This document shows, piece after piece, positions 12,384 to 31,814 of a DNA stretch of 46,511 nucleotides (position 1 is its first letter; every line of letters begins with the position of its first letter). Where the stretch lies: NCBI GenBank assembly GCA_020852965.1, contig JADYZV010000125.1, positions 1 through 46,511 on the forward strand, given 5' to 3'. The notes below the pieces were generated by a model, which saw only the letters and a program-made list of their open reading frames with translations, searched no databases and had not been told where the DNA came from. The translations under genes and the position numbers were made by a program. Source of the stretch: Pirellulaceae bacterium (GTDB lineage Bacteria > Planctomycetota > Planctomycetia > Pirellulales > Pirellulaceae).

Positions 12384-12465
12384 GCCCACCGCTTCGATTG
12401 CTGAGCACGCGCCAAATACCGGTAAGCATTTTGGAACGATAGCTGATTGGGCATCGCCACACTGC

Positions 12466-12534: not shown

Positions 12535-12598
12535 AAATGCGGATAGCCCGAATATACAAACACACAAATCTCTACCCAGCACACCATCGGCCACCAAC

Positions 12599-15500: not shown

Positions 15501-16666
15501 CAACGGTGAATTTTCAAGCATGGGAAATTGGGTCTCTTCCTTTTTTTCATTCTTCTTCGGCAGTCCAAGTTATTCGCGAAAATACGGAGTCACTAATATC
15601 AATTGTCGAAAGCGATTGGAACACCAATGAAACGTCACTTGGGTTCAGTAATAATCCGTTTCTCGACAATAGCATTCGCGGAGAAATGTGCGACGCCTAT
15701 CTGCGTTTCAATGAATCTTCGCGATCGATAACCCAGAAGGCGCAGCGCTTAGAGGAAATGATCGACGAATTAATAATTGAATCCTACCAGGTGGGATCGG
15801 TATTAAGTTCCGCAATTCAAGACCTTTCCGAAGTCACGCTCTACTGCAACCCCGCATTTCGCTACGGCTCGGACAAGAGCGAGTCGGAACTTGAAGTCCT
15901 TCTTCTTGCGGACACGATGCGTGAATTAATCAGCTACGCCGTGGGCTGCATGTTGGGGCGTTACTCGCTGGACAAACCGGGACTGATCCTGGCCAATCAA
16001 GGCGAAACGGTCGACGACTACCGTCAGCAGATTCCCGAACCGTCCTTCTCACCCGACGAAGACAACGTCATCCCCCTTCTCGATGGCGATTGGTTCACCG
16101 ACGATATCAGCCAGCGTTTCAAAGAGTTTCTCAAAGTCACCTTCGGCACCGAGCACTACGACGAGAACCTCACCTTCCTAGAAAACGCTCTCTACCCCGA
16201 CAATCTGACCGGCAGGAAGCGCAAGACCATCCGCGACTACTTCTTAAAAGAGTTCTATAACCACCACCTCAAGCTCTACAAAAAGCGGCCCATCTACTGG
16301 CTCTTCAGCAGCCCCAAGGGGACCTTCAACGCCCTGATCTACATGCACCGCTACCGCCCCGACACGGTCAGCGTCGTGCTGAGCTACCTTCGCGACTTCC
16401 GCGACAAACTCACCCACCACACCGCCCACCTCCAATCCGTCGCCGACCGCGCCGACGGCTCCAAGTCCGACAAGACCAAAGCCCTCAAGCAGATCAACGA
16501 ATTCAAAAAGCAACTGAAGGAGCTCGACGACTACGAACGCACCACGCTCTTCCCCCTAGCGCAAAAGCAGATCCCCATCGACCTCGATGACGGCGTCAAA
16601 GTCAACTACCCCAAGTTCGGCGCCGCCCTCAAGAAGATCCCAGGCCTGGAAAAGAAAGAGGACTAA
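12599..16666 (+). CDS. pglX: PglX, BREX DNA adenine methyltransferase (with in-frame insertion)
   Basis: A 1355-aa N6-adenine methyltransferase that marks host DNA in BREX type 1. The start MDTSKLRKFASSARQ is standard for the family. SAM motif I DPACGSG is at residues 467-473 and the catalytic NPPY at 643-646. The C-terminal region (FYNHHLKLYKKRPIYWLFSS) is typical. About 170 residues between roughly 284 and 451 are foreign: low-complexity Ser/Pro/Ala/His stretches and out-of-frame coding of a four-helix-bundle gene. This segment lies just before motif I and leaves the frame open, so a full-length though enlarged protein is possible. Codons from about 14550 to 15880 look AT-richer than both ends, suggesting exchange of the target-recognition part. 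Confidence 0.9.
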   Translation: MDTSKLRKFASSARQALIEQVSTRLTKVLADGSLARRESASAVAELEQRIREAGQVQVIETVAYTWFNRFCALRYMDVNRYTRIGVLSPTEGQFQPEILAEAKMGHIDEDLIPDKVRQKVLRLLNESDPSSDPQGEAYRLLLVAVCNHYHSLMPFMFEKIADYTELLLPDDLLSASSIPAATREALVPDNCSPEHTQESVEVIGWLYQFYIAEKKDEVFAALKKGKKITPENIPAATQLFTPHWIVRYLVENSLGRLWMLNHPDSKLIERMDYYIKPEAEAETGARDEGRGTSRKQGDTNGSSELQRPDRLAACDGTSDANLQGDEDVSQRGNVRSDESVASGGRVDSIQHRGESCAERNSGIQELSIDSERQSGRSGNAASDLAQSELLGSNKAGTTDGHTNRSQQDGQRTNAEVGLTRPSPPASHPSSPAPPPSSPAPHPSSLAPHPSSTNFPRISSPEEIKICDPACGSGHMLTYAFDLLYAIYEEQGYQATDIPRLILTNNLYGVEIDPRAGALAAFALTMKAREKYRRFLSSGKVVQPNICVLENIKVDPQELDDYMDKVGRDLFSDCLQGVVNQWEEAENFGSLIRPQVSDVSDVLELLREREMGEDLFIANIHQKVLKALRQADYLSPKYHVVVANPPYLGSRGMNSSMKKFTTSNYNEAKSDLFAGFMERNLELALERGLVAMITMQSWMFLSSYRELRERLISNIKLLTMAQLGERAFDTIGGAVVSTTCFVLANLRGADYPTTFLRLVDGGSEAEKQQSFREDPNCRIIEKTSTFSSIPGSPFAYWVHRKVRECFQYFEPLHAVATPRAGMITGNNDQFVRFAFEVERRKIGLNCTSRESASKSGKKWFPYQKGGTYRKWFGNVEHVVDWESDGRRLRTTTDENGKVPAHAFNEDYIFKPNANWSAISTTNFACRFTRGGCLFDASGSAAFPSPEMVPAVVAFLNSSVARTLLNAINPTVNFQAWEIGSLPFFHSSSAVQVIRENTESLISIVESDWNTNETSLGFSNNPFLDNSIRGEMCDAYLRFNESSRSITQKAQRLEEMIDELIIESYQVGSVLSSAIQDLSEVTLYCNPAFRYGSDKSESELEVLLLADTMRELISYAVGCMLGRYSLDKPGLILANQGETVDDYRQQIPEPSFSPDEDNVIPLLDGDWFTDDISQRFKEFLKVTFGTEHYDENLTFLENALYPDNLTGRKRKTIRDYFLKEFYNHHLKLYKKRPIYWLFSSPKGTFNALIYMHRYRPDTVSVVLSYLRDFRDKLTHHTAHLQSVADRADGSKSDKTKALKQINEFKKQLKELDDYERTTLFPLAQKQIPIDLDDGVKVNYPKFGAALKKIPGLEKKED
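13449..13476. repeat. Left heptad arm of the pglX insertion
   Basis: Four 7-bp units of the form GAGCGAG, GGACGAG, GGGCGAG, GGACGAG. They are the inverse of the CTCGTCC/CTCGCCC units of the right arm. No stop codon occurs in the pglX frame. Confidence 0.8.
13497..13853 (+). CDS. Four-helix-bundle protein (23S rRNA IVS / S23 family), nested in pglX
   Basis: A 118-aa protein with the S23 family pattern: YKDLIVWQRAMELV at the start, YGLTSQLRRAAVSIPSNIAE in the middle, and helical EFRNFLSIARGSLAEVETQL before the end. It is complete, with a ribosome-binding site AAGGGG about 6 nt before the ATG, and is read in the +1 phase relative to pglX. Members fold as four helices and assemble as pentamers; their function is not established (the related Avd acts with reverse transcriptase in diversity-generating retroelements). 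The stop codon is followed immediately by the right heptad arm. It could be translated from the pglX transcript. Confidence 0.85.
   Translation: MAVQSYKDLIVWQRAMELVTQIYKETKTFPKEEMYGLTSQLRRAAVSIPSNIAENHARKGTAEFRNFLSIARGSLAEVETQLLISLNLNYLDQTRLAQLMAIQIEVNKMVNALMQKLV
13854..13951. repeat. Right heptad arm of the pglX insertion
   Basis: Fourteen consecutive 7-bp units, consensus CTCRYCC (for example CTCGCCC, CTCATCC, CTCGTCC, CCCGCCC), starting directly after the TGA of the nested gene. Because 7 is not a multiple of 3, all phases are read; none of the units creates a stop in the plus direction, so pglX reads through as Pro/Ser/Ala/His-rich sequence. Confidence 0.85.
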
Positions 16667-16667
16667 T

Positions 16668-19600
16668 ATGTCTTTCCTGTTTCCTATGCCAGACAATGAA
16701 GATGCATTTGAGGCATTCTGTAAGCGACTAATGGCAAAGAAATTTGAGTCACCATCGCTACAGCTTTACGGCAAACGCGGCGAAAAGCAGGATGGTGTAG
16801 ACGTTGTTGATTTATCGGGAATCAAGCCGCTACGCGGTTGGCAGAGCAAACATCACCCAGGCAAGACATTGCCTCCTCGCGAGATTGACGCTGAAGTTCA
16901 GAAGACGACGCAATTTCGGCCAAAACTTGACGAGTACTACATATTAACCACTGGGCGAAAATCGACGCATGCCCAACGAAAGCTCTTGAATCTAAATAAG
17001 GACCGCCCCCACAGGCAGTCGTTCGAAACGTTTATTTGGACATGGGACGAGATTGAGGGAATTCTATCGGATTTGAATGATATCGAGCGCGACAGTGTGC
17101 TTCACGGCGGTACAGGGCGCGACGCTGCGGCGATCGTCGGGCTAATCAGGGAAGCAAATAAACAACTTCTCGCGGAGAATACGCTAGTCGCGACGGACCA
17201 CGTCTTGCAGTCGCGGCTCGAAGCTGCCGAGCGGCACATTAGGGACGAGAACCGGCAACTTGCAGAGTACGAGCTCGAGCAGATTGCAGGGATTTCAACC
17301 GCTACAACGAACCGGACAAACCGCTATCTGATTTATCGGCTCAACGCCAAGTTTTTGATGTTAACGGGTGAAGTGGAGGTAGCAGCAAAGCGCTTTCTGG
17401 ATGCATTCAACGAGCAACCCGAATTGGAACAGGCTCGCATCAACCGGGCGATCGCCTACGGCTTACTTGGAAACACTGAACGCGCGTTTGAACTCGCCAC
17501 AGAACTGAAAAAACAGGGCGTCCGATCCGAACCAATTCCAGCTCTTCTGCTTCAAACATCTCCTAAGCCTATTGCCGCGGAGTTGCACGCGTGGCTTGAG
17601 GATTTTCTCGATACGTCCGAAGAGCTTAATCTGAGTTACGCGATGCAGCATTTGGACGAGGGAAACCTTGAAGAAGTGCTGAAGGCCGCCGATCGCGTCA
17701 AGAGAATCAATTCCAAGTCCTCTCGCGCTGAACTATTCGAGGCGATGGTGTTCCACAATCGAGGTGTCGGTGCGCGGGGCGACACACGCAACTCGAATTT
17801 GGAGCAGGCATACGAGAAATACAATCTTGCTCTCGGCGACCAAACTGATGATTTGCCTGAGCGATCGAAGCCAGATGCTTTAAGAAATCTGTCGTCGGTC
17901 CAGTTCCTACTCGGGAGGGATGATCCCAAGAAGACATTTGAAGCAGCAATCGAGAAAGCTCGAGATAAGGCTCCCTATATCGGGTCTTACCTCAATTACC
18001 TGTGTTCACAAGAAGACTATGAAGCGGCGCGTTCCTACTTGGCCAAACTAGCTGAGGGAGCTGAGTTCGAGGATGAGCAATTCCTGCGGAATGTGATCGA
18101 GTACAACACAAATGCAGACGCTGACAAACCGGCATTGATTCAGTCAATGTTTGAGCTCGGACAGTCTGAAGGTAACAACCGCAGAATGGAATGTCTCGTC
18201 TTTGCAGTTCAGTGGTCAACGCAATCGCAACTCGTCGATACAGCTATTAACAGTCTGGAATCTTCGAAGGACTCAACCGACGCATTAGTCTTTCATACGT
18301 GCTTGACTTGGCTGAAACTTGAGAAGGGCGAAAAGCAAAAGGCCAAAGCGGAAGCCTTGGTGGCCCAAGCCATCGTCACCGACGGTTCGGATGCGCAAGT
18401 GGTTTCACTGCTTGGCCGTCTCCTAATGCGGTTAGATGCTTTTGATGTAGCGCTGCCATTGTTTGAACAGATCGCTGATCAGTCGAAGTTGTCCGACGAC
18501 ACTCGGGCACTGCTAGATTGCGCGATGAAAACTGGCAAGCACGACGTCGCATTAGCAGTCTGTGAAAAGCTACGCACAGCAAGTAGTGGGAATTCAAGCA
18601 CATTTAGCTTGGAAATCGAGTTGCTCGGAAGGTACAGTCCAACCAAAGCATTGGACGTACTCGATCAGGCACTCAACAACGACCCGGCGAACAAATGGCT
18701 GTACGCTTGTAGATGCTTCGTTCAGACACGACTAAAGGGGAGAGTGGACGACTTGGACATTAGTCGGCTTCCCGGCTGGAATGAAATCGCGTTCACCGAT
18801 GCGCACCTCGTATTGTTTCCCCTAATTGCAGCCAACTACCACAAAGAAGCGATCGATTTCGCCTATGCCCAGCTTCGTGAAAACTGGGCTGAAGAATTGG
18901 CGCATGGCCGATATATGTGGCTGTTTTTGCAGTTCGCCAGCGGAAGTGGGCTGAAGTTGGACTACACCAAAGTGGAAAACGGTTGCGCAGTTCACTATCA
19001 GGAAGAGGGTGATCCAATCAAGACCGTCCTCATCGACGGTGATTCTGCTGAACCATTGGCCGGAGACGAGAAGCGGCCAGACTCCGATTTTGGGCAGTTG
19101 CTCATGGGGGCCAAAGTAGGAGCAGAGATTGAACTTACGCCCGGAGGAGTTCAGCCTCGTAAAATCAAGATAGTGGAAATCCAATCGAAATATATTTATC
19201 GCTACCAAGATGTTCTGCACAACATGCAGATTCGCTTTCCTGGAACGTCTGCAATTCAGATGATCCAAATGGAGCACGAAGGCGAATTTGATATTTCGCC
19301 AATCGTGAAGAGTCTGGAAGAGCGCAGGAAGTACGTGGACCAAGTCCTCGAGGAATTCAAACGCTTGCCTGCTGCGACCGCTTTCCTAGCGAAATGGCTG
19401 GGGCTGTCGTTTTACGAGGCTCATGAATCGCTCACGATGTTGCCAGATATTGGCATTCGATGCTGCCTTGGTCGTAGCGAGGGCTTGGAAACAGCTTTGA
19501 CACAACTTCGAGCTGCCCCAAAATTGGTCTTAGACCAAAGTGCCATCGTCACGATCCATAACCTTGGACTCTGGGAAAAGCTCAGCGGCTACGAGCTCAT

Positions 19601-20420
19601 TGTCGCTCGCTCCATTGTCGATGACTTCAACGCGTGGGTGCGAAACCTTGAAGAGAACGGCCTCGAAAGCGGAGGTACAACTTACCTCGATGAAGATGGT
19701 CAACTGCGATTGATTGAGTTCATGCCCGAGCAAGTAGCGGATCGTAAACAGAACGCAAAAAGGCTGCAAGAAGCGATACAATCGCGCTGCCAGATCCTGG
19801 AATCAAGAACGCTTCCTAGCCTGCCGGAGGCACGGGAATACTACGAAGAGCTTGAAGCAATACCCATTCTAGAATCGCTGTTGCTAACCAAAGAAAATAC
19901 CGGCGCCGTGCTCTTAGCAGACGACGTTTACGTTCATTGGGCAGCCGGCGTCGATCACGGACTATCTGGCATCTGGACGCAGGTACTTCTTGATGAGCTC
20001 AAGAAGCAGAGGCGTTTGAAGCACGGTGAGTATGTTGACTGCAACGCGAAATTGGTTGGCTGGCGCTACAATCCAATACGCTGGGATGCGGAAACAGCAT
20101 TAGCTGCATTTGTTATCGCAGAGTATGACGCGCGGAGATATCCATTCACTGCGATTCTCCGTGAGTTCGCGAGTTCAAATCTCAGTTCAAAACGCAAGTC
20201 ACAGACAGCTCTCCATTTATTCCGCTTAATGTATCACTCCGAGATCCCACCGATCTACCACGGCTCTCTCGTCTTTAGTGTCCTGGAGGCAATAAACGAC
20301 GTCTGGGCCGCAGACAGGATACGGATGGCATCGCAAGAGGAATTCCTTCCGTACCATCGAATGGGCGAGGACCTTTCCCGGTGTATTCAGGTCTGGGACG
20401 AGCATCGAAAAGGATTCTAG
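16668..20420 (+). CDS. Large multidomain protein: Mrr-like nuclease, TPR, GreA/B-C-like, PIN-like
   Basis: A 1250-aa protein starting 1 nt after the pglX stop (the frame is open further upstream inside pglX, but MSFLFPMPDNEDAFEAFCKR is the natural start). Residues 33-61 hold YGKRGEKQDGVDVV and WQSK, matching the D...QxK core of Mrr-like PD-(D/E)XK nucleases (D45, Q59, K61). Residues about 190-720 are helical TPR-like repeats. Around 806-845, DFGQLLMGAKVGAEIELTPGG followed by KIKIVEIQSKY resembles the GreA/GreB C-terminal domain. From about 953 on, LDQSAIVTI, VARSIVDDF and GIWTQVLLDEL resemble a PIN-like nuclease domain. Domain names are by eye from motif patterns; the PIN and Gre assignments are less sure than the N-terminal nuclease. 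It probably acts with the next gene. Confidence 0.75.
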   Translation: MSFLFPMPDNEDAFEAFCKRLMAKKFESPSLQLYGKRGEKQDGVDVVDLSGIKPLRGWQSKHHPGKTLPPREIDAEVQKTTQFRPKLDEYYILTTGRKSTHAQRKLLNLNKDRPHRQSFETFIWTWDEIEGILSDLNDIERDSVLHGGTGRDAAAIVGLIREANKQLLAENTLVATDHVLQSRLEAAERHIRDENRQLAEYELEQIAGISTATTNRTNRYLIYRLNAKFLMLTGEVEVAAKRFLDAFNEQPELEQARINRAIAYGLLGNTERAFELATELKKQGVRSEPIPALLLQTSPKPIAAELHAWLEDFLDTSEELNLSYAMQHLDEGNLEEVLKAADRVKRINSKSSRAELFEAMVFHNRGVGARGDTRNSNLEQAYEKYNLALGDQTDDLPERSKPDALRNLSSVQFLLGRDDPKKTFEAAIEKARDKAPYIGSYLNYLCSQEDYEAARSYLAKLAEGAEFEDEQFLRNVIEYNTNADADKPALIQSMFELGQSEGNNRRMECLVFAVQWSTQSQLVDTAINSLESSKDSTDALVFHTCLTWLKLEKGEKQKAKAEALVAQAIVTDGSDAQVVSLLGRLLMRLDAFDVALPLFEQIADQSKLSDDTRALLDCAMKTGKHDVALAVCEKLRTASSGNSSTFSLEIELLGRYSPTKALDVLDQALNNDPANKWLYACRCFVQTRLKGRVDDLDISRLPGWNEIAFTDAHLVLFPLIAANYHKEAIDFAYAQLRENWAEELAHGRYMWLFLQFASGSGLKLDYTKVENGCAVHYQEEGDPIKTVLIDGDSAEPLAGDEKRPDSDFGQLLMGAKVGAEIELTPGGVQPRKIKIVEIQSKYIYRYQDVLHNMQIRFPGTSAIQMIQMEHEGEFDISPIVKSLEERRKYVDQVLEEFKRLPAATAFLAKWLGLSFYEAHESLTMLPDIGIRCCLGRSEGLETALTQLRAAPKLVLDQSAIVTIHNLGLWEKLSGYELIVARSIVDDFNAWVRNLEENGLESGGTTYLDEDGQLRLIEFMPEQVADRKQNAKRLQEAIQSRCQILESRTLPSLPEAREYYEELEAIPILESLLLTKENTGAVLLADDVYVHWAAGVDHGLSGIWTQVLLDELKKQRRLKHGEYVDCNAKLVGWRYNPIRWDAETALAAFVIAEYDARRYPFTAILREFASSNLSSKRKSQTALHLFRLMYHSEIPPIYHGSLVFSVLEAINDVWAADRIRMASQEEFLPYHRMGEDLSRCIQVWDEHRKGF

Positions 20421-20525
20421 TAGTGCAGTTGTCATTTGCACGAAACACAACATATAGTCAGCGCGCCAAAATAACACGACGCATTCACCCATACACCACA
20501 GATTCATTTCGAGACAACAACAGCA

Positions 20526-23500
20526 ATGGCCGGAATTAGTGTAGATGTCGTCAGCTACCTGAGAACCAACCTCCGAGATCGATACAAAGACTCGTATTCA
20601 ATTCTCAAGGAACTTGTCCAGAACGCAGACGATGCCGGTGCCGACGAATTGCATCTGACAAGCTACGAAGCAATGGGAGCGTATTTCAAGCATCCACTGC
20701 TGAAGGGCCCGCTCGTTTGCATTGTCAATAACGCGGAATTCACGCTAAACGATGCATGTGCGATTCACCAGGCGGGGATTGGAACCAAAGGACTCGACGA
20801 AGACAAGATAGGTAAATTTGGGCTTGGCCTCAAGAGTGTCTTCCATCTCTGCGAGGCCCTTTTCTACGTCAGTTCAGCAATTGGCGAGAATTCAGCACCT
20901 CTGTCCAGCCACGCCCACAAGTACCGTCGCGACGGATTACTGAACCCGTGGCATGAGCAGCGCTATGAGCACTGGGACGAGCTCGAAGAGCACGACATCA
21001 AGAATCTCAAACTACTAGTTGAGGCACAATTAAGAAAGTCACCTTCTGGATTGCCGGAGAACTGGTTTGCCATTTTTCTTCCGTTGAGACTGCCTGAGCA
21101 CTGTATCGATCCGGCGCAGGCCAACGCGCAAGAACTGACACCAGCAGAGCAACTCACGCTGGCGAAACAATGGGCCCTAGAACCGAAGTTCCCAACCTTA
21201 CCCGGTGCAGACGAACGCGACCTGCTGGACGCCAGGCAACACATTGAACGAGTTCATGGCGTGATGCCACTTTTGACACGGGTGCGCCTGATTCGGTTCA
21301 GCCGGGCGACCGCACAGACATGGAAGACACCTGAGGTCACGGCAACCATTGAATTCCGCTGCGAAACAGAACGCCTCAACTGGCGGAGGATGAGCACTGG
21401 CACGCACCGAGAACACGGCGCAATTGTCGTTCAGCAAAATGAAATCGCACCGTTCGAATCAGTCTATGCTGTGGCACATACACTAGCGGAACTGCCAGAG
21501 CTTAAGCGAATCGTACAATCTGCCAGCTGGCCGTGGATGGATGCCTTAGACGAAGACCAGGGATGGCAACGAAAACCCGCCGTGGCAAAGCAGCACGGGG
21601 CTGTTGCGATCCTCGATACTGAAGGGCCTGGAGTTGTCAGCATCAATCGGGCTGTCTTCCTGCCTTTGGCAGAAACCAACAATCGAGGTTTTCAATCAGA
21701 GATCTGCTGTGGGGGGAGCCGCAGTTTTCGGATTTCGCTTCACGGTTATTGTTTCGTCGATGCTGGTCGATTGGGGATCGACGAGGCGAACGAGGGCGAG
21801 GAGCAGTCGGCCCGCCAACTCTGGAATCAAACGCTAATTGATAACGTAGTCCTACCGCTTGTTATTCCAGCTCTCGAGGAGTATCGAAACAAAATTGGCC
21901 AGTTGGCGGATCGAGATGAACGCCTGAAAAATCTTACGGACGGTCTGAGCAAAGCGTTTTCACACCACTATGAATCCTGCATCTGCCGCGACAATTCTTG
22001 GAATTACTTGCTTAGGGGCAAAAAGGCCCAGTGGGAAATCTGTCCTAATGCAACTCCGCTGATCTCGTTGCCAGGTAGCCAGGATGAAATAGGTACTCTG
22101 TTGAAGCTGTTTCCAGCTCTAAGCTCCCTGTCAAAGGATCATGTATTTGTACTGTGTGATATGCCGTCGTTAAGTAGCGGTGCGACCTACGAATGGCCGG
22201 TGCACATCGCGGAGCAGTTGCTGAGCTCTGTGCCGGTCGATCCCGTCACCCGTGATCCGGATCTCTTAAGTGCCTTGGTGGAATTTTGCGAACACTTGAA
22301 ACGTGAGCTTGGAAGTGCAATTGAATCCGCCCTTTGCGATCTGATTCGACGGATCCTGTCGGATGAGAAAGTGCCGTTATCTCGGCTGCGGAGCAATGAA
22401 TCCAATCGCATTTGCTTTGCTGCACTCCTCAACCTAGTCGCCGACTCAAGAAAGCTTTGGATACCGTTTCGCGATGACTTGGTGGGGGAGTCCGAGAATT
22501 TGATGGACGGGCTTCAGGCCGTCACGAAACAGCGAATTGTGATACCCAGCGTGCTAGATCCGCGAAAGAGGTCAGTCGATCTCGCGGATGACGAAGCTCT
22601 CAGGATATTTGCTCAGTTAGCGAGCACAGAAGCCACTGGGGCCAATGAGGACGGCTATCGCAAACTGATGAGCGAAACCGTGGACTGGATGCTTGACGCC
22701 TGGCCTCAGGCTGTTGATAAGATTCTGGATGCCCCCCTTTGTGATCTGCGGCTGTTCTACGCACGGGATTTTTCGTCTCAGACTGTTACTAAATTCAGCC
22801 CATTTGAACTCTACGCAGCAGCCTACGAGCATCGACTCTTTGGCAGCAGCGCACAACTTTGTGACAAACTGCAATCTTGTGTGGTTGATCTGGCTGTTCT
22901 GTACATCGATTCCCCAAGTGGTTGTTTTACCAAAGCGCTCGGCTCCGACCTGCCTCCGTGTACGCCCAAGTATTGTACTGAGTTGCTTGGCAAGCGGCCG
23001 AGGCTGATTCCAGAGCTTGCGCCTCGCGTTGCACTGCTTGAGCAGTTGACGTCGGTTGGAGCCGACGCTGACTGGGCGAGCATACGCTACCTGCTTCACG
23101 GTCAACCCGAGGGTGTAGCCGATGAGCTGGGTTTGGTTGCGATGGACAAAGGTCCGTGGAGCATGCTTGCAGAACGCTTGCTACAAGCCAATGCACAAGA
23201 TTGGCGAGGCATCAGTGAGGATTTGCTAGACAATTTGACGTCGGCAGATAAACGCAATCTTTGGATCGAAAGCTGCGGTCCCGCGACTGTTGCGCAGTTA
23301 GTTAAGGAAGTGGATACGCTAACGCTGGATCTCTCTTCGCTCGCAACAGACCGCGCTGCGCGCTACACGATTATTCGCAATTGGCCAGCCGACCAGGAGG
23401 AATTGCTCAGGAGTCTACCGATTTTCAGCAAGTCCGACGGTAGTTTTACCCCGATCACTCAGCATACTTTCATCAACAGCGGTAACGTAGCACCACCAAG

Positions 23501-26500
23501 TGACCTTTTTTCGGACCTTCAACTGATTGAAGATCCTGACGGAGTTTTGGCATCTCGCCAGTTAGCTCCAACCCTCAACTCACAGGACATCCTCAAGAAA
23601 CTGCTGGAAGAGAAAGGCTGTCACAAACACTGGCTGTTTATCATGGATCAGTTGGATGCAGCGACGGATCCGGCTGTTAGGTCATTGCTTGGACAGGCTC
23701 CTTGGCTGACGACCAAGGACGGAGTGGCAGTTAGCCCAAAGCATGTCATTTGTGAAGATACGCTCGAAAGCTACGTTGCTAAGCTGAAGGCGCAGGGTGC
23801 TACGCTCGTCCACCAATCCGAGCTTCTGTCAGATTTAACGGCTCATCAAAAATGGCAGCGTGTCGCGACAGGCTTTTGTCCAACAACGGATTCTCTGTGC
23901 CGAACAATTGGAGAAAGCGTCCGTGTCCTACCCTGCTATCGGGTTGGGGCAGGCACATGGCAGGATGGACTCCTGGAGAGTCTGCTTGAGCTGTTTGCGG
24001 ATTCAAACGACCTCCTTCCTGCAATTGGGCTGATAGAAGCCCTGAGGAATCTGCCTGGCATTGGTCTTCAGCAGCTAGAGAAATTGCTTTTGCCCGTAAT
24101 AGGCAAACGAATCGACGTCGCCTGCTCCGTTCAAGCATTGAATCATATTCGGGGCAGGCATGAGGGAGCGACATCGGCGCAGAAAAGAGGTTATCTACGG
24201 ATCTTTAATTCATTATTGGATGAAGGATTACTACAAGACGGATTTGCCGAACGGCTCGACGAAATCAGCCTACTCAATCAGATCGGAGAATGGCGAGAAG
24301 CCTCGGAGCTGGCGATTGAAGGTTACAATATAGCTCCCACGAGCCTGGTGCACGAAACGCAATTGGAAGTCCTCCGGAAACACCGTGTGGGCGTGGGCAA
24401 GGCGCCGGAAAGTCATTTGACCGGTGGGATATTGAGCGGAGACGGCTTCGATGAGTCGCACATCAGCAGAGGAGTGAGGGCCTTCGAAGAGTATTTAAAA
24501 CAATGGCGGACAGATGAGATTCCCGGCGACGCCGTTGCCTCGTTGATTGCGATGCTGGGCGCGAAGGATGGCTTGCGTGAGATGTACGATCGATTCAAGG
24601 ATGGACGCGACTGGCAAGCCACGAAAAACTTATTGTTTGGTTCGCCGAGCATTCAGTCACGGTACGACTCCTATCGGTTCTGGATCAGCGAGGCTGAGCC
24701 TCGCAAAGTCGATGCCATAAACATCCGCGGAAATCGATTTCATGCGGATGTTGCCACTGAGATTACGAGTCTTTTTGACGGCTTCGGGGATGGTCGTTAT
24801 ATCCAGTTCATTCTCTTGCCCGGTAATGAGAAGTGCTTTCATATCCGCCTTCGCAAGATCGAGGTCGATAAGCTCAATCAAAGCCAACAACTCGAGATTC
24901 TCCGCAATACGATCATCGCAATTCGCAGCGGCATCTATCAAATCTCGGGAGGGGAAATCGATGAGGAATGGGAGAAAATCACCAATGTCAATCAGCTTGA
25001 TATTGACATTGCTCAACAGCTGATTCTCGACTCCAGCGCGATGTTGTTGGAAACGCAGCTCGCCGGTAATCTGCCCGCCGTTTTGAAAGAAATCTTCAGA
25101 GACCTACATTCAGTTCGCCAACGTGAAAAAGTATCCGAGCAATCTGATTGTTCTCAGGGAGAGTTGGAGTCAATTCGGAAAGAAAAAAGAAAAGTGTTTG
25201 AGCGGCTGCGTCATAGCCTATCTGAGGACGAGGAGGTCAAGCGGCATCTCATTCAAATGATTCGCTCGCGACTCGAGTCTCAAAGCTACGATCAGTCATC
25301 GATTCCATTTGAATTGTTTCAAAACGCTGATGACGCGGTGATTGAACTGTCAAGTCTGGCATCTGACGACGAGCTCGAACGAATGCGGCCCGCCTCGCTG
25401 CGTGACCAGTTCTTGATTGAATTCGATCGAATTGGCGACAGCCCGGTACTACGCTTTCTCCACTGGGGGCGCGGCATCAATCAATACCGAGGTATCTCGA
25501 GGGAAAATCAAGATTTCAGCCGAGATATGGAACGCATGCTCGTTTTACAGGGCTCCGGTAAACATGGTGAGGGCACTGAAAAGCGGACCGGAGGATTCGG
25601 TTTAGGATTCAAGAGTGTCCTTTTCGTATGTGATCAACCTGTCGTGTTCAGCGGAGCGAGGAGTCGTTTTCGTGTGCTGGCAGGTGTTTACCCTGCGTCA
25701 CTATCGGACCGACAAGACAAAAGGGATGAAGAGCGTCTCAAAAAACGTCTGGAAGAGTTTGGGGATCACAATCACAAGGGAACGATCGTCGAACTGCTTC
25801 TTGAGGATGGGATTGACGGAGACGCATTGCTGAACCGATTTCGTGCATATGCCGGATACTTGGTAGTCTTCTCCCGTGCGATTCGCAAATGCGATGTAGG
25901 TAGCATCACTTCGCCTGTTTCTTTTACTTGGCAACCCCAACGCATCCTCGAAAATATCGATGTGGGTGATTTAGTTGGGCCAACGGGTCGGCATACCGCG
26001 CTCGTCGTCAAGTCAGCGGACTCGTCGGATGCCGTGCTGATACCGCTCGATAAATTGGGAGTAAATCCGAATCTAACGGCTGGTGTTCCTGAAATCTGGG
26101 TAACGACTCCAACCGGGCATGAGGGGCGGAGCGGAATGCTGGTGAACGGCGCCTTTGACGTTAATCCTGGAAGGACTCAGTTACGAGATACACCACAGAA
26201 TACTCAGCGTGCAAACAAAATTGGTCTAGCTCTCGGAAATGCGCTAGGTCATTTGTTTGAGTTCGCAACAAATGACTGGAATAGTTGCCGCCAGCCATTA
26301 GGATGCACCCAATTAAGTTCGAAACAGTTCTGGTCTTCCCTGTGGACTGCTGCAACTAACGCACTGAGCTCAAATTCTACTGACCCGGCAAAACAAGTTG
26401 TTCAGACTGTTTTTTTTGGGAGTGAACATAATGGCATCTTGAAGCTGATCAGCAGTTATCCCGCGCTACCCACCGGTTTACGTGGTGATTACGATGTTCT

Positions 26501-28277
26501 CGCGCAATTGACTAGTTGCCGATGGAGATTGGATGGAATTCTTGCTCGAGAAGCCATTTGGGAAAGCGTCAGCCAGATAGCGAGAGTACAAAATAAATTC
26601 AAGCCAGGAACCGTTCTTTCTTCTAAAACAAGTAGGGAACTGGCAGATATCAGCGAGGAACTTTTCCTCGCGCTCAATCCACTAACCTTCAACGATATCC
26701 TCTTTGAACTGCTGGACAACAAAACCTCCGTTTCGCCTGAGCTTGCAGGTGAACTTTCGCGTTTTATCAACAAGGCTGCATGGAAAGAAATTGAGGGTAT
26801 TGAGTCTCTACGACCTGAACTTGAGACAGTGACAGAGCGTCTTTCCCAGTTGATGTTTCAAACTAAAGATGGTGGCTGGGCGCGTTCGCAAGAGCTGCTT
26901 TGCGACAAAGAACATCCTTCTTGTAGCGATGACGAGCAGGCACGAGCAGCATTTGCACCGCTAGAGAGATTACTGGGAGAAGACTACGAAGGCCAAGGAC
27001 TGGAGCTCTATTTCGTATGCAGAGGTGGACTCAGAGTAGATGCTGAAACGATGGTTTCCTGGTTAGCAGAAGCTACGAATCACGCAGCTCGAACGGCTGG
27101 CCTCAAATATCTGAGTACGGGTTTACAGAGGTTGCAAATGCAAAATATTCTTCGCCCACCCGCGAGTACTTATCGGACGAAATGGCTACTAGACAAACTG
27201 GAAGTCCACCGGGCAGCCCAAGGTCTTGAGGACCATGAAAAGGCGCTGATAGATATTACGTTGGGCTTCATGGCATATTCAGCTCCAGTTGTTTCTGCAA
27301 GCATACAACGCGTGCGTACTTGTAAAGAGATTCTTGAAGACACTTATTCATGGTGGGCCGAGAACAAACGCGACATACTTACGACGCATGATTCCGCCGT
27401 CTACGCCTCCGGCGAATTACCCTTACTGAGCTTTTCTCCCGCGAAGCTTGATTCTGATCTGAATGCCAAAAAGGAATGGCTAAAGCTTTTTTTTCGCGGC
27501 ATCATGTTTCGCATTGGCCGTTTGACTCCTCAGCAAGCGAGGCATTTCCTACGGGACTTCGAAGATCGGGGGTGGCTTGCACAACTGGCAGACAACGACA
27601 CACCAAGCGAGTGGTTTCGAATACTCGACGAGTATTTGGAGCAAGACTCCCAGCGTTCGATGTACTACCACTACATGAACCAGTTTCTAGCTTACTATCA
27701 GGTGGCTCGCTGGCTGCCAAACTATGTTCGAGCGTTTGAGGCCGTGACGAGACCGGGAGTCAATCTCAAAAATTTGGGGCAGATTACGGAAATCACCAAT
27801 CTTCGCACCAGCCACATATTTGAAGGAGCCACCGGCTTTGACGCCCCACCTTGTTACGTAACGATGGGCAAAGGCTCGCATTTCGTACTTCGGGAGGTCA
27901 TACGGTCGAGAATCAAGCAGGCGGAGGCGAATCTTGAGAAGTATAAAGTGAATCCACAGTTATCTCAGCAGGCGTTTGTGCCCTCGCTGGCGGTGCTTCG
28001 GCTGCTTGAGGATATCACTGGGGACTATAGCTGGACTGAAGTGCCCAGCTCACGTGAAGCTTATATGTATCAATCCAAACGAATTAGTACATTGCTTACC
28101 GAGCATCTTGGTCCAGAGCGAGCAACTTTTGGCGGTAATTATGACATTCCTTTGTTGGCGCTAAATTGGACCGATTTCGCTGAAGACCGTGCATGTATCT
28201 TTGGCTATAGTTCGGACAGTGGTTCGGATCCTAACGAACTGGACTTCTTGGCAGAATCGGAAGAAAACAATGAATGA
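20526..28277 (+). CDS. Giant sacsin-like protein with two HSP90-type ATPase domains
   Basis: A 2583-aa protein. The first Bergerat (GHKL) ATPase domain is at the N-terminus: ELVQNADDAGAD (residues 29-40) and KIGKFGLGLKSVFHLCE (94-110). A second complete domain begins near residue 1590: ELFQNADDA (1596-1604), HWGRGIN, and GFGLGFKSV (1690-1698). The remainder is largely helical with no transmembrane segment. Sacsin-type proteins use such domains as ATP-driven chaperones, and bacterial sacsin-like ATPases occur in predicted conflict systems. It follows the TPR/nuclease gene by 105 nt and overlaps the helicase gene by 8 nt. Two ATP sites in one chain may replace a dimer. Role in phage defence is inferred from context. 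Confidence 0.85.
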   Translation: MAGISVDVVSYLRTNLRDRYKDSYSILKELVQNADDAGADELHLTSYEAMGAYFKHPLLKGPLVCIVNNAEFTLNDACAIHQAGIGTKGLDEDKIGKFGLGLKSVFHLCEALFYVSSAIGENSAPLSSHAHKYRRDGLLNPWHEQRYEHWDELEEHDIKNLKLLVEAQLRKSPSGLPENWFAIFLPLRLPEHCIDPAQANAQELTPAEQLTLAKQWALEPKFPTLPGADERDLLDARQHIERVHGVMPLLTRVRLIRFSRATAQTWKTPEVTATIEFRCETERLNWRRMSTGTHREHGAIVVQQNEIAPFESVYAVAHTLAELPELKRIVQSASWPWMDALDEDQGWQRKPAVAKQHGAVAILDTEGPGVVSINRAVFLPLAETNNRGFQSEICCGGSRSFRISLHGYCFVDAGRLGIDEANEGEEQSARQLWNQTLIDNVVLPLVIPALEEYRNKIGQLADRDERLKNLTDGLSKAFSHHYESCICRDNSWNYLLRGKKAQWEICPNATPLISLPGSQDEIGTLLKLFPALSSLSKDHVFVLCDMPSLSSGATYEWPVHIAEQLLSSVPVDPVTRDPDLLSALVEFCEHLKRELGSAIESALCDLIRRILSDEKVPLSRLRSNESNRICFAALLNLVADSRKLWIPFRDDLVGESENLMDGLQAVTKQRIVIPSVLDPRKRSVDLADDEALRIFAQLASTEATGANEDGYRKLMSETVDWMLDAWPQAVDKILDAPLCDLRLFYARDFSSQTVTKFSPFELYAAAYEHRLFGSSAQLCDKLQSCVVDLAVLYIDSPSGCFTKALGSDLPPCTPKYCTELLGKRPRLIPELAPRVALLEQLTSVGADADWASIRYLLHGQPEGVADELGLVAMDKGPWSMLAERLLQANAQDWRGISEDLLDNLTSADKRNLWIESCGPATVAQLVKEVDTLTLDLSSLATDRAARYTIIRNWPADQEELLRSLPIFSKSDGSFTPITQHTFINSGNVAPPSDLFSDLQLIEDPDGVLASRQLAPTLNSQDILKKLLEEKGCHKHWLFIMDQLDAATDPAVRSLLGQAPWLTTKDGVAVSPKHVICEDTLESYVAKLKAQGATLVHQSELLSDLTAHQKWQRVATGFCPTTDSLCRTIGESVRVLPCYRVGAGTWQDGLLESLLELFADSNDLLPAIGLIEALRNLPGIGLQQLEKLLLPVIGKRIDVACSVQALNHIRGRHEGATSAQKRGYLRIFNSLLDEGLLQDGFAERLDEISLLNQIGEWREASELAIEGYNIAPTSLVHETQLEVLRKHRVGVGKAPESHLTGGILSGDGFDESHISRGVRAFEEYLKQWRTDEIPGDAVASLIAMLGAKDGLREMYDRFKDGRDWQATKNLLFGSPSIQSRYDSYRFWISEAEPRKVDAINIRGNRFHADVATEITSLFDGFGDGRYIQFILLPGNEKCFHIRLRKIEVDKLNQSQQLEILRNTIIAIRSGIYQISGGEIDEEWEKITNVNQLDIDIAQQLILDSSAMLLETQLAGNLPAVLKEIFRDLHSVRQREKVSEQSDCSQGELESIRKEKRKVFERLRHSLSEDEEVKRHLIQMIRSRLESQSYDQSSIPFELFQNADDAVIELSSLASDDELERMRPASLRDQFLIEFDRIGDSPVLRFLHWGRGINQYRGISRENQDFSRDMERMLVLQGSGKHGEGTEKRTGGFGLGFKSVLFVCDQPVVFSGARSRFRVLAGVYPASLSDRQDKRDEERLKKRLEEFGDHNHKGTIVELLLEDGIDGDALLNRFRAYAGYLVVFSRAIRKCDVGSITSPVSFTWQPQRILENIDVGDLVGPTGRHTALVVKSADSSDAVLIPLDKLGVNPNLTAGVPEIWVTTPTGHEGRSGMLVNGAFDVNPGRTQLRDTPQNTQRANKIGLALGNALGHLFEFATNDWNSCRQPLGCTQLSSKQFWSSLWTAATNALSSNSTDPAKQVVQTVFFGSEHNGILKLISSYPALPTGLRGDYDVLAQLTSCRWRLDGILAREAIWESVSQIARVQNKFKPGTVLSSKTSRELADISEELFLALNPLTFNDILFELLDNKTSVSPELAGELSRFINKAAWKEIEGIESLRPELETVTERLSQLMFQTKDGGWARSQELLCDKEHPSCSDDEQARAAFAPLERLLGEDYEGQGLELYFVCRGGLRVDAETMVSWLAEATNHAARTAGLKYLSTGLQRLQMQNILRPPASTYRTKWLLDKLEVHRAAQGLEDHEKALIDITLGFMAYSAPVVSASIQRVRTCKEILEDTYSWWAENKRDILTTHDSAVYASGELPLLSFSPAKLDSDLNAKKEWLKLFFRGIMFRIGRLTPQQARHFLRDFEDRGWLAQLADNDTPSEWFRILDEYLEQDSQRSMYYHYMNQFLAYYQVARWLPNYVRAFEAVTRPGVNLKNLGQITEITNLRTSHIFEGATGFDAPPCYVTMGKGSHFVLREVIRSRIKQAEANLEKYKVNPQLSQQAFVPSLAVLRLLEDITGDYSWTEVPSSREAYMYQSKRISTLLTEHLGPERATFGGNYDIPLLALNWTDFAEDRACIFGYSSDSGSDPNELDFLAESEENNE

Positions 28278-30927
28278 ACCACTGAATCGTGGTCAGCGCG
28301 TGCGCGTGGCCGGCCACGGACTGGGAGAGGTGCAGGCAGATCTAGGTCAGACCGTTATTGTTCGATTTGGAACTGAGATCCACGAATGTGATCGCAGCAG
28401 CGTTCAGGTCATACAAGACGCGCGACAAGCCTTTGCAAGTGGGACCGCACACTCTCCCCTGGAAGTCGTCACGCGAGTGCAAGCTGAGTGCATTAGCTCC
28501 ATCAATGCTACTTGGGGAATGTTCGCTCGCAGCAAAATATCCCTGCTGCCCCATCAGCTTTGGGTGTGCAGGAAAGTGCTCGAAACATGGCCCGCCCGAT
28601 GGCTAGTCGCCGATGATGTTGGCCTGGGCAAGACGATCGAAGCGGGGTTGATCTTGTCTGCCTTGAAATCCAGGGGATTGCTCGAGCGATTACTAATACT
28701 CTGCCCAGCGTCGCTGGTCGAGCAATGGCAGTACCGATTGCGCACGATGTTCGATCTGCGAACCAGCGTCTATGCGCCTGACGCTGACGGGGAGCGTACG
28801 GATTTCTGGAATACCAATCCACGAGTGGTTGCGTCGCTCCATACACTACGCATCGAAAATAAGGGTCGTCAGAAGCGGCTCATTGAGTCGGAACCCTGGG
28901 ATGTCGTGCTGGTCGACGAGGCACACCACTTGAATGCGGACGAGCAGGCAGGTCCCACGCTGGGATTCAAACTGGTTCAACGGCTAGAAACCGCCAACCG
29001 AGTTCGATCGATGATCTTTTTCACCGGCACACCGCACCGTGGCAAGCCATTCGGTTTTTTATCACTGCTGAGCTTGCTGCGACCCGATGAGTTTGGCCCC
29101 AAGAAGGCGATGAAGGAGCAATTGCGCAATCTGCCAAACGTGATGATTCGCAACAACAAGCAGAACGTGACGGACCTCCACGGCAAGCAGTTGTTTCAGC
29201 CACTCGTCGTTGAGCCCCGCACCTATACCTACTCTGCCGCTGAGGCAAAATTCTACGATATGCTGACCGAGTTTATCGTTTCAGGCAAAGCTTATGCGAG
29301 TCATTTAGGCGGACGCGATGGCAGGGCCGTCATGCTAGTGCTCATTTCCATGCAAAAGCTAGCCTCTAGTTCCGTCGCGGCCATCCTTCGCGCACTGCGT
29401 GGACGGCTAGCGAGGATAGATGTGGAGACAGATTCGATTGAAAGTCAACGCCTTGCTAATCAGCAGGAGGAGTTGGAAGAAAATGGAGACTTGGACGACG
29501 CGGCTGCAATCGACGAACGCATAGCCGAAATTCGCTTGCGATTGATGAAGGACGAGAAGGAGTGGCTGACGAAGCTCATTGATGCCGGAGAAGAGGTAGA
29601 CGAGGAAACCAAGATCCAGTCCATCGTTGCCGAGATCGAGAAACTAGACACCTCCGTATTGCTGTTCACAGAATACAAAGCGACCCAGTCGCTGCTACTG
29701 TCACGTCTGATTGCTCGATTCGGAATTGAATCCGTGAGTTTCATCAACGGGGATGAGGAAGCTCGTGGGGTTCGACTGCCCAATGGCAAGGAGACCACGC
29801 TTCGCAAACGTCGCTCGGAAGCCGCCGACCAGTTCAATGAAGGTACAGTGCGTTTCCTGGTTTCGACAGAGGCGGCCGGCGAAGGAATTGACTTGCAGCA
29901 GAAGTGCCACACTTTGATTCACGTTGACCTGCCGTGGAACCCAATGCGATTGCACCAGCGTGTAGGGCGGCTCAATCGCTACGGTCAAACGGAGCGGGTT
30001 CAAGTGATTAGCTTCCGCAACCCCTCCACGGTTGAAAGTCGCATCTGGGAAAAGCTAACTGAAAAAATTGAGCACATCAACAATGCTTTACGACAAGCCA
30101 TGGCAGATCCGGAAGATCTATATCAACTAGTTCTGGGGATGACGCCACCTAACGTCTTTCGGGATGTGTTCGCTTCGGGTGGTGACGTTCCTGCCGAACG
30201 GTTTGACGAATGGTTCGATCGCGAGACCGCGACTTTCGGTGACGCGGATGTGATTGATACGGTGAAGCAGCTAGTTGGCAATTGCTCACGCTTCGATTTC
30301 CAGCAGATATCGGAAAAATTGCCCAAGGTGGATCTTCCCGATCTGATCCCTTTTATGCAGAACAGCCTTGTTCTGAATCGACGTCAGCCGCGACTCGTAG
30401 ATGGCGAGCTAAGCTTTAAGACGCCTGATTGCTGGATGTCAGACATAAGGGTATTACCAGAATATGAACGCATGGTGTTTGATCGCAATCAACGGGAATC
30501 TCGGTCGCTTGACCGCCTCCTCGGGGTTGGTCACGTAATAGTCGACTCTGCCCTGGCCCAAGCTTTGGACCTAGAGGCAACCACAGCATTCATTACCGCT
30601 GATCGTCTTGAGTCTCCAATCGCTGTGTACCGGGTCTTTGATCGAATTACAACTGATGCCCAAAATCGCAAGACGCTGGTCTATGGAGCTGCATTTTCTG
30701 CTGACGGACAGATTCGAGTGTTACCTGATTGGCAACTGTTGAAAACGCTGAACTCGCTCTCCGCCCACAGTCTTAAAGCCATGCCGGAAACGTTCACGGG
30801 AAGCCCGCTCGTCACTGACTCCCGACTGGAAGAAGCCGGAGCCCTCGCTTTGGAAACGGCGCTAGCTTCCGGCGAATTGTTTACGGCGCCGGACACCTCG
30901 CTTGTAGCATTGTTGAATCCCAAATAG
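28270..30927 (+). CDS. SNF2-family helicase (DrmD/BrxHII-like)
   Basis: An 885-aa superfamily 2 ATPase. Motif I DDVGLGKT is at residues 115-122, DEAH at 216-219, a TGTPHRG motif follows, and the C-terminal lobe has STEAAGEGIDLQ and HQRVGRLNRYGQ. A charged helical insertion lies between the lobes. Such enzymes translocate on duplex DNA and are the DrmD subunit in DISARM and a helicase subunit in some BREX types. The frame is open upstream to 28189, but the ATG at 28270 overlaps the preceding stop in ATGAATGA, a coupling arrangement, and starts at the conserved part. Bases 30013-30160 recur as a remnant at 31851. Confidence 0.9.
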   Translation: MNEPLNRGQRVRVAGHGLGEVQADLGQTVIVRFGTEIHECDRSSVQVIQDARQAFASGTAHSPLEVVTRVQAECISSINATWGMFARSKISLLPHQLWVCRKVLETWPARWLVADDVGLGKTIEAGLILSALKSRGLLERLLILCPASLVEQWQYRLRTMFDLRTSVYAPDADGERTDFWNTNPRVVASLHTLRIENKGRQKRLIESEPWDVVLVDEAHHLNADEQAGPTLGFKLVQRLETANRVRSMIFFTGTPHRGKPFGFLSLLSLLRPDEFGPKKAMKEQLRNLPNVMIRNNKQNVTDLHGKQLFQPLVVEPRTYTYSAAEAKFYDMLTEFIVSGKAYASHLGGRDGRAVMLVLISMQKLASSSVAAILRALRGRLARIDVETDSIESQRLANQQEELEENGDLDDAAAIDERIAEIRLRLMKDEKEWLTKLIDAGEEVDEETKIQSIVAEIEKLDTSVLLFTEYKATQSLLLSRLIARFGIESVSFINGDEEARGVRLPNGKETTLRKRRSEAADQFNEGTVRFLVSTEAAGEGIDLQQKCHTLIHVDLPWNPMRLHQRVGRLNRYGQTERVQVISFRNPSTVESRIWEKLTEKIEHINNALRQAMADPEDLYQLVLGMTPPNVFRDVFASGGDVPAERFDEWFDRETATFGDADVIDTVKQLVGNCSRFDFQQISEKLPKVDLPDLIPFMQNSLVLNRRQPRLVDGELSFKTPDCWMSDIRVLPEYERMVFDRNQRESRSLDRLLGVGHVIVDSALAQALDLEATTAFITADRLESPIAVYRVFDRITTDAQNRKTLVYGAAFSADGQIRVLPDWQLLKTLNSLSAHSLKAMPETFTGSPLVTDSRLEEAGALALETALASGELFTAPDTSLVALLNPK

Positions 30928-31186: not shown

Positions 31187-31381
31187 ATGTCGGGGACCAT
31201 TGAATCACGCTTGGCAAGAATCGAGCGCGAGTTGGCTATTTTAAAAGCTAGAACCTCTCGTGATAAATCCAATTGGATTGCTGAAATCACGGGCTCCTTT
31301 AAGGACGACTCCGACTTTGACGAGATCGTACGGTTGGGCAAGGAAATGCGGGACGCTGAGCAACCCGAGGATAGCGACTAA
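31187..31381 (+). CDS. Small antitoxin of the second PIN pair
   Basis: A 64-aa, charged, helical protein (MSGTIESRLARIERELAIL...) with no recognised DNA-binding motif. It ends 1 nt before the toxin start at 31383, which together with its size identifies it as the antitoxin. The beginning resembles the partial gene at the left window edge. A weak AGGATG lies before the start. The pair interrupts the BREX operon between the SNF2 helicase and pglZ. Confidence 0.7.
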   Translation: MSGTIESRLARIERELAILKARTSRDKSNWIAEITGSFKDDSDFDEIVRLGKEMRDAEQPEDSD

Positions 31382-31382: not shown

Positions 31383-31814
31383 ATGTATGTTCTCGATTCC
31401 GATCATTTGAGCATTCTGCAACGCCCCCATATGGACGAGTTTTCGAACCTATCGCGACGTTGCTCCGAACGTCCAGCTAGCGAGTTCTTTGTCTCGATCG
31501 TTTCGTTTCACGAACAGGTCAACGGCTGGACGAAGTATATCGCCAGAGCGGCGAAATCGGATGGATTGATTCGTGGGTACACCGAACTTGAAGGAATTCT
31601 CGACGCCTTCGCACGCGCCCAAGTCCTCCCATTCAGCTCAGCCGCAGCGGAAGTTTACGACGAACTTCGATCCCAACGGATACGGGTCGGAGCCATGGAT
31701 TTGCGAATTGCGTCAATTGCGATTGCCAATGGAATGACGCTCTTGACACGAAATGCTGTCGACTTTGAGCGGATTCCCAATTTGGTCTTTGAGGACTGGA
31801 CAGTCGATCTGTAG
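31383..31814 (+). CDS. vapC: PIN-domain toxin (VapC-like)
   Basis: A 143-aa protein starting MYVLDSDHLSILQ, with the first acidic ligand D5. The C-terminal AMDLRIASIAIANGMTLLTRN and VDFERI carry the other PIN acidic residues and the typical strand order. It is an expected Mg-dependent RNase, kept in check by the 64-aa protein upstream. The open frame extends upstream to 31260 in the antitoxin region, but the ATG at 31383 fits the family start. It is unrelated in sequence to the pair at 4439. Confidence 0.82.
   Translation: MYVLDSDHLSILQRPHMDEFSNLSRRCSERPASEFFVSIVSFHEQVNGWTKYIARAAKSDGLIRGYTELEGILDAFARAQVLPFSSAAAEVYDELRSQRIRVGAMDLRIASIAIANGMTLLTRNAVDFERIPNLVFEDWTVDL

Follow-up and report, generated by a model that had tools for sequence, protein, structure and literature searches.

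A double sacsin-type GHKL ATPase and an SNF2 helicase as a candidate defense unit within a type 1 BREX operon of a Pirellulaceae bacterium

The pglX-pglZ interval

This report concerns a stretch of 46,511 nucleotides (nt) from a Pirellulaceae bacterium (assembly GCA_020852965.1, contig JADYZV010000125.1, forward strand), which we call "the window". To judge by gene content, it holds a complete type 1 bacteriophage exclusion (BREX) operon, and between the pglX and pglZ genes of that operon lies an interval of 15,368 nt. There, the gene for a large ATPase with two GHKL domains is followed by one for an SNF2 helicase. From the sequence comparisons detailed herein, we conclude that this GHKL-SNF2 pair is a mobile two-gene unit separable from BREX, and that it is the notable part of the locus. 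The interval comprises the following features:

16668..20420, + strand: module 1, a restriction endonuclease (REase)-like/TPR/GreAB-C/PIN protein of 1250 amino acids (aa), assigned from PF20698, a family profile that leads to GreB, and an eight-sequence alignment
20429..20458, + strand: weak promoter-like site within the 105 nt that separate module 1 from the GHKL gene (10 of 12 matches)
20526..28277, + strand: module 2, first gene, a double sacsin-type GHKL ATPase of 2583 aa (PF25794; sacsin and MORC2 matches in the PDB)
28270..30927, + strand: module 2, second gene, a RapA/DrmD-like SNF2 translocase of 885 aa (SNF2 and helicase C domains; PADLOC DrmD; RapA structures)
31187..31381, + strand: vapB-like antitoxin open reading frame (ORF) of 64 aa, assigned from position, sequence and its neighbor; no Pfam match
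31383..31814, + strand: vapC-like PIN toxin (PF01850, 27.9 bits, cut-off 23.6; NCBIfam VapC, 48.8 bits, below the cut-off of 140)
31851..31998, + strand: decayed SNF2 relic that copies nt 1744-1891 of the SNF2 gene in direct orientation (148 nt at 91% nt identity; 50 aa at 82%)

The three large ORFs and their tight junctions stand as a preliminary description of this DNA gave them: module 1 begins 1 nt past the pglX stop (16666), the 2583-aa ORF follows after 105 nt, and the SNF2 ORF overlaps the latter by 8 nt. That description had only these three genes separating pglX from pglZ; they are indeed present, but the interval also contains the VapBC-like pair and the SNF2 relic. The name "VapBC-like" reflects a PIN toxin above its Pfam cut-off and below that of NCBIfam VapC, together with an antitoxin assigned by position. 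Its location 1 nt past pglX probably ties module 1 to BREX expression, and module 2 is perhaps tied likewise. The region has 15 promoter-like sites, compared with 11.8 (standard deviation 3.6) in shuffled sequences; because the scan does not rise above the shuffles, we do not claim a promoter of its own for module 2.

The same description took pglX and pglZ to be close together as a rule. A survey of BREX loci reports otherwise in the passages that treat this interval: pglZ and pglX are co-located in ~9,000 genomes, ~7,000 of which carry genes between BREX components, and ~5,000 of these loci held no system then recognized by defense catalogs (PMC11341690). Because such intervening genes are reported as common, the arrangement in the window is ordinary. 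The nested systems BrxU and PARIS, as far as they are treated there, likewise place extra defense genes in the pglX-pglZ interval of a complete BREX; the contents differ, and no match to BrxU (GmrSD) or PARIS was found among the window ORFs scanned with Pfam and PADLOC.

The relic lies shortly 5' of pglZ, and a slightly longer match between it and the SNF2 gene includes one TAA. The intact SNF2 gene and its counterpart in a same-genus genome (G007) share, over the same stretch, 81% identity in DNA and 98% in protein, whereas the relic retains 91% and 82%, respectively. The intact gene thus looks to be under selection and the relic to be drifting. The relic would fit a past duplication or replacement within the slot, and we count it, as a pointer to turnover there, toward the interpretation given below.

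The GHKL ATPase and the SNF2 translocase

The 2583-aa protein is aptly described as a sacsin-like double HSP90-type ATPase. The sacsin domain PF25794 matches it in two stretches (101.5 bits; cut-off 32.8), GHKL ATP-binding motifs, with E29 and E1596 at the two sites, lie near residues 29-104 and 1596-1697, and its sequence relatives in the PDB are sacsin (E-value 1.3e-14) and, more weakly, MORC2 (about 1e-4). We aligned 47 GHKL ORFs of 2300-2750 aa, a few of them cut by contig ends, and used 44 for region profiles. In both GHKL domains the ATP-binding motif residues are at least 95% conserved among the 47 sequences; given this conservation, both ATPase domains are probably active. At seven loci the protein is split into two ORFs (799-913 and 1678-1868 aa); five of these are cyanobacterial (L022, L049, L084, L089 and L101), and the others are L054 and L055. 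The split genes suggest that the two ATPase halves may act as separate chains.

The smaller partner is, as previously described, an SNF2 helicase, with SNF2 and helicase C Pfam domains. Its Walker lysine, K121, and its DEAH box are at least 95% conserved in 44 aligned sequences (two weaker SNF2 proteins included), and its closest relative in the PDB is RapA. It scores 935.5 bits with the PADLOC DrmD model PDLC02634, for which no curated cut-off is shown, and falls short of the curated cut-off of both NCBIfam DrmD models (288.9 of 610 bits and 143.2 of 950 bits). No nuclease was recognized by sequence in the pair, which is weak negative evidence.

Recurrence of the pair

One genome per species was scanned (84,980 species) with a four-sequence alignment, yielding 135 relatives of the GHKL protein, the best 80 of which were kept as 79 loci. 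Sixty loci were testable, in that at least 1.5 kb follows the GHKL end; L102 and L107 had no labeled GHKL ORF, and 17 had too little room. Some redundancy is present: L093 and L094 are apparently one sequence in two records, and two loci per genome occur for L036/L053 and L034/L078. At 46 of the 60 testable loci, an SNF2 gene (>40% identity) lies on the same strand within 300 nt of the GHKL gene, and 13 of these close pairs exhibit the classical 4-nt overlap. Among the other 14, the SNF2 gene is found at 677-819 nt (three loci), on the opposite strand (one) or in a weaker form of 29-32% identity (two); eight have none within 4 kb. Further, the two proteins have diverged in parallel. Their pairwise distances are correlated (Mantel r 0.717, 44 pairs), and none of 2000 permutations gave a value as high, the highest being 0.218. 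On the strength of adjacency and correlated divergence, we rejected a chance pairing of the two genes.

A third conserved partner was also considered. Among ORFs of at least 120 aa, no family recurs in more than eight of the 49 pair loci, and the top one consists of other helicases; on this recurrence count, we rejected a third conserved partner gene of that size. The alphaproteobacterial pair loci L092, L096 and L098 share an upstream WYL regulator, a RecB-like nuclease, and proteins of 1076-1079 and 438-442 aa, a set that is possibly part of a larger system.

In plasmids, the GHKL protein matches seven records. All five SNF2 matches of 46-51% identity fall in GHKL-matching records, and the SNF2 matches next down (32%) are in records without a GHKL match. 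Counted by record title, the pair occurs in about ten phyla, although many of the records are metagenome bins whose titles may err: Pseudomonadota, Desulfobacterota-type bacteria, Planctomycetota, Verrucomicrobiota, Acidobacteria, Chloroflexota, Cyanobacteria, Bacteroidales, Gemmatimonadetes and Bacillota, with Deinococcus plasmids in addition. Six of 98 related genomes, the window's own included, have the GHKL protein, and the count for the TPR protein of module 1 is likewise six of 98. Viral contigs gave a single GHKL relative, L129, an IMG/VR record filed as viral, in which a 2503-aa GHKL relative (7965-15476) adjoins an 886-aa SNF2-sized ORF.

The pair beside BREX genes

Matches to BREX, DISARM (defense island system associated with restriction-modification) and TPR proteins at the 79 GHKL loci are BLAST best hits (E 1e-5) within flanks of at most 10 kb, some of them short, and the counts are lower bounds, since diverged genes can escape such a search. 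With the type 1 proteins of the window as queries, BREX genes were found at only four of the 79 loci (L033, L062, L059 and L049), at each of which PglZ was confirmed by Pfam. For the GHKL-SNF2 pair, this result supports the suggestion in the preliminary description of a nested, independent module. The positions differ. The GHKL gene is about 760 nt past brxL in L033 (same contig as C78 of the same-genus genome G007) and about 350 nt past it in L062; in L059 it is 6.7 kb past brxL, and the intervening genes are mostly on the opposite strand. In L049, a two-ORF GHKL without SNF2 lies between pglX and pglZ, 53 nt past pglX, in a BREX that differs in also having BrxD and a DEAD helicase. These differing positions indicate that the pair, or its GHKL gene, reached a BREX neighborhood more than once. 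Judged from these gene contexts, the pair looks like a passenger or partner of BREX, not a core part of it.

The G007 genome is 84% identical to the window in SNF2, 71-72% in GHKL, 71% in brxL, 56% in pglZ, 52% in pglX (residues 434-1350) and 48% in brxC (last 265 aa). Beside BREX, its GHKL gene is broken by an insert of 3.2 kb and then runs off the contig; another contig carries GHKL residues 1041-2583 with SNF2 directly adjoining, and we infer that the two parts are one gene. The insert (L012 14481-17688) follows GHKL codon 66, has a sigma-70-like ORF, and may be a mobile element or an assembly fault. In the PglX of this genome (L012 2915-6535), identity to the window steps from 81% (residues 1-283) to 52% (residues 434-1350). 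So sharp a step suggests the exchange of part of the gene.

The preliminary description had treated the three genes as one cassette and asked whether they co-occur elsewhere. They do not, in the material searched. The TPR protein does not accompany the pair at other sites: it is the best hit of no ORF at the 79 GHKL loci (many flanks being short), the seven GHKL-matching and 18 TPR-matching plasmid records have none in common, and the window's own genome is the only one of the 98 related genomes that matches both proteins. With no recurrence alongside BREX as a unit in the other genomes searched, we rejected the trio as a conserved cassette, and its standing as a set of BREX subunits is unsupported.

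Module 1

Module 1 is rare and belongs to a named Pfam system. PF20698, the PIN domain of TPR-GreAB-C-PIN proteins, matches it with 44 bits (cut-off 27.8) and is over the cut-off in all five homologs scanned; in a phylum sample of 294 genomes it has matches in four, three of them over the cut-off, the window's own genome included. The domains proposed earlier for this protein (Mrr-like, TPR, GreAB-like and PIN-like) fared unevenly. The PIN domain stands. The TPR matches are weak, there is no PADLOC match, and GreAB-C is below its cut-off in the window protein (14.9 versus 26.9 bits), but a profile built from eight aligned module 1 sequences picks out GreB in the PDB (E 1.4e-5). For the "Mrr-like" N-terminus, Pfam gives no match in the window protein; its basis is an aligned D...Q[CS]K motif and the homologs, in which Mrr_cat_2 reaches 22.8 bits in L122 (cut-off 22) and a sub-threshold 16 bits in L116. 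The eight aligned relatives have a C-terminal chassis in common, and in six of them the N-terminus is REase-like with this motif; it is replaced by a SIR2 domain in L118 (9497-13924) and by a phosphorylase domain in L127 (9853-14010). A shared chassis with exchanged N-termini is the pattern of an effector-swapping conflict protein, and the sequences suggest that the family is of this kind.

Matches to the TPR protein occur in 18 of 72,556 plasmid records, seven of which cover at most 11% of the query. No BREX genes and no GHKL-SNF2 pair were found at nine module 1 loci that we opened (five in genomes, by BLAST with the window proteins; four in plasmids, by annotation). These include L120, whose PF20698 match is below the cut-off, and the four plasmid records are also without a GHKL match. 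Thus, module 1 is found elsewhere on its own. Three Hyphomicrobiales plasmid relatives have an upstream helix-turn-helix gene, whereas the window copy lacks it and is within a BREX operon. A search of the open-access literature, exclusive of supplements, found no publication on TPR-GreAB-C-PIN proteins.

The type 1 BREX core

All six type 1 BREX genes have intact ORFs, in canonical order on one strand, with Pfam or PADLOC matches. The order on the + strand is brxA, brxB, brxC, a dinD-like gene, pglX, the 15,368-nt interval, pglZ and brxL:

6500..7282, + strand: brxA (PF08849, 159.7 bits)
7279..7890, + strand: brxB (PF08747, 133.1 bits)
7905..11420, + strand: brxC (PADLOC BrxC, full length, 1659 bits)
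11535..12383, + strand: dinD-like (Bro-N) gene (NCBIfam PRK11525, 369.6 bits, cut-off 242; PADLOC PDC-S13, 387.5 bits)
12599..16666, + strand: pglX (brxX) methyltransferase (PADLOC PglX, 1376 bits; Eco57I Pfam)
32035..34536, + strand: pglZ (PF08665, 197.2 bits)
34555..36585, + strand: brxL with a C-terminal PLD-like domain (BrxL_ATPase, 417.7 bits; MIT_C, 141.7 bits)

The single PF08665 match in the window's own genome is the PglZ domain of this operon. The C-terminal PLD-like (MIT_C) domain of BrxL fits the HKD-DNase variant of type 1 BrxL as outlined in part of a 2026 BREX survey (PMC12839542). The dinD-like gene is located within the operon, with brxC on one side and pglX on the other. The region 5' of BREX encodes a DEAD-box helicase (1109-3541) whose zinc-binding domain is of the MrfA type, an ORF of 215 aa that has no match in Pfam, and a PIN protein (4647-5075).

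Relation to known systems

The best PADLOC match of the GHKL protein is TmtA, which we take to be Tiamat. Tiamat is a single-gene system. The match (74.5 bits) is confined to the GHKL regions, with about 100 residues matched, and the TmtA models span 1302-1782 positions compared with 2583 aa; the likeness thus does not extend over the full length. The SNF2 motor core is common to the DISARM protein DrmD, BrxHII and RapA, but the partner genes differ. Closer in organization are the prokaryotic MORC/paraMORC operons, in which, according to the sections that describe them, mobile restriction-like loci place a GHKL gene beside a superfamily 2 (SF2) helicase, with SWI2/SNF2 as one class (PMC2292703). 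Those operons are linked to nucleases and often to methylases, and "sacsin" does not occur in the text of that paper as available to us (PMC2292703); the window pair has two GHKL domains per chain and no recognized nuclease. VcSduA, a Shedu protein of the paraMORC3 type, is an anti-phage GHKL protein modeled as a dimer with a clamp-like middle domain; it carries a C-terminal nuclease, and the available text describes no SNF2 partner (PMC12137116).

The portion of the main text of the 2026 BREX survey at hand contains no occurrence of HSP90, GHKL, GreAB or TPR (PMC12839542), and a HEPN survey, in the relevant passage, speaks of sacsin for animals and slime molds (PMC3710099). Our search of the open-access literature found no description of a double-GHKL plus SNF2 pair, and no publication on BREX with sacsin or HSP90-like/SNF2 proteins. 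By its sequence, the pair would be a novel version of the GHKL-helicase theme.

Discussion

We propose, with a probability of roughly 0.72, that the pglX-pglZ slot of this BREX operon collected at least two separable accessory modules along with the VapBC-like pair. Gene content, the pairing, the correlated divergence, the conserved ATPase and helicase motifs, and the defense-rich neighbors all argue for this modular interpretation. On the same grounds, module 2 most likely constitutes an anti-phage system by itself.

Several points weigh against this interpretation. With E 1e-20 as the threshold, proteins neighboring the pair (116, from 41 of the 49 loci) match 151 PADLOC models, among them argonaute, type IV restriction, BrxH-like and PDC-S68, versus five for 116 control proteins (from 13 of 19 stretches of such genomes); yet these are counts of models, which are redundant, and not of proteins, L040 and L062 contribute a few BREX or DISARM genes to the neighbor set, and the control set is smaller (38,217 versus 49,433 residues). 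The comparison shows the direction of defense enrichment, not its size. The five of 79 GHKL loci with BREX or DISARM genes leave room for a functional link; a PglZ domain is over the cut-off somewhere in 22 of 39 genomes (which account for 40 of the 79 loci), a figure that comes without a background rate; and on a Deinococcus plasmid about 20 kb separates the pair from a BrxB-domain gene. Two of the seven GHKL plasmid records (Synechocystis and Haematobacter) have no close SNF2, and the first 283 residues of PglX are more similar between G007 and the window than is the GHKL protein. Profile searches against the PDB and Pfam gave no convincing match for GHKL residues 540-1560 and 1880-2583 (PDB chain 2qgu, found at E 0.052, and four Pfam families, seen in one of 44 members apiece, were taken as chance); a nuclease hidden in these regions is possible. 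Moreover, the clamp proposed below is drawn by analogy.

The preliminary description also raised the possibility of a composite system. In such a BREX subtype, the three proteins would be working subunits, SNF2 and GHKL remodeling marked or unmarked DNA and the TPR-PIN protein serving as effector. The common strand and the 1-nt and 8-nt junctions are in keeping with this idea, as is the two-ORF GHKL in the same slot of the L049 BREX; further, an SNF2 motor, BrxHII, belongs to type 3 BREX in the part of the survey that covers it (PMC12839542). We nevertheless consider a composite improbable. The six-gene core is complete without the three genes, 75 of the 79 GHKL loci have no BREX match in their (sometimes short) flanks, and at none of the nine opened loci is the TPR protein linked to BREX. 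As far as the searches reach, the trio was found only here, an outcome on which, by the preliminary description's own terms, the idea fails. A functional link between the pair and BREX may still exist. Less probable again is a DISARM variant, i.e., a DISARM-derived helicase unit. The 935.5-bit score with the PADLOC DrmD model suits such an origin, and so do two loci: drmA-drmB-drmC precede the pair on the same strand in L040, and in Trichormus drmC-drmB-drmA are located on the opposite strand, about 5-11 kb past it. Yet 78 of the 79 GHKL loci have no best hit to drmA, drmB or drmC, and none of these genes was found among the 13 window ORFs scanned with PADLOC, which gave helicase cross-matches only (the SNF2 protein scores 183.5 bits with a DrmA model, well below its own DrmD score). 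Because the SNF2 protein is under both NCBIfam DrmD cut-offs, we rejected DISARM membership.

The pair could instead belong to a chaperone-like or repair locus, without a defense role, that is parked in an island. Sacsin and Hsp90 are chaperones, and RapA recycles RNA polymerase. The sporadic distribution (six of 98 relatives, this genome included), the carriage on plasmids and the defense-rich neighbors make such a role unlikely. A better case, if still a minority one, can be made for a back-up layer, which is partly compatible with the modular interpretation: the modules would answer phage anti-BREX proteins, as PARIS answers Ocr, and so guard BREX. In known BREX operons such intervals house PARIS and BrxU, per the section of the survey devoted to them (PMC11341690), a passage of the 2026 survey proposes back-up nuclease effectors that include REase and PIN types (PMC12839542), and the N-termini of the TPR-PIN family are exchangeable (Mrr, SIR2, phosphorylase). 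On the other hand, such a layer has no known trigger, most GHKL-SNF2 pairs are not near BREX, and no toxic effector domain was recognized in the pair.

Under the modular interpretation, how might module 2 act? GHKL proteins dimerize their ATPase domains on ATP binding, thereby clamping clients or DNA. By analogy with MutL, MORC and Hsp90, ATP binding would bring two GHKL domains, from a single chain or from separate chains where the gene is split, together as a DNA clamp. The SNF2 protein would bind and translocate on foreign or actively transcribed DNA, and the clamp would need no nuclease of its own to block phage replication or transcription. We offer this clamp-and-motor mechanism tentatively. 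MORC-1 topologically entraps and condenses DNA, according to the part of that study that treats it (PMC8277788), and Iyer et al., in the relevant section, proposed DNA looping for MORC-type GHKL proteins with SF2 helicases (PMC2292703). It is tempting to suppose that the BREX mark tells self from non-self, but there is little evidence for this. A bolder extension would have the pair as a widespread nuclease-free anti-phage machine, the counterpart of MORC/SNF2 silencing, in which SNF2 loads the clamp on DNA without the host methyl mark and the pair plugs into BREX or DISARM as a DNA-silencing arm; we regard this as speculative, with only a small chance of being right.

The locus offers one unrecognized content of a BREX interval as a testable, transferable two-gene unit. 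If the pair protects cells, it would add to phage defense a clamp-and-motor strategy without a nuclease, and would give sacsin a prokaryotic relative whose partner is defined.

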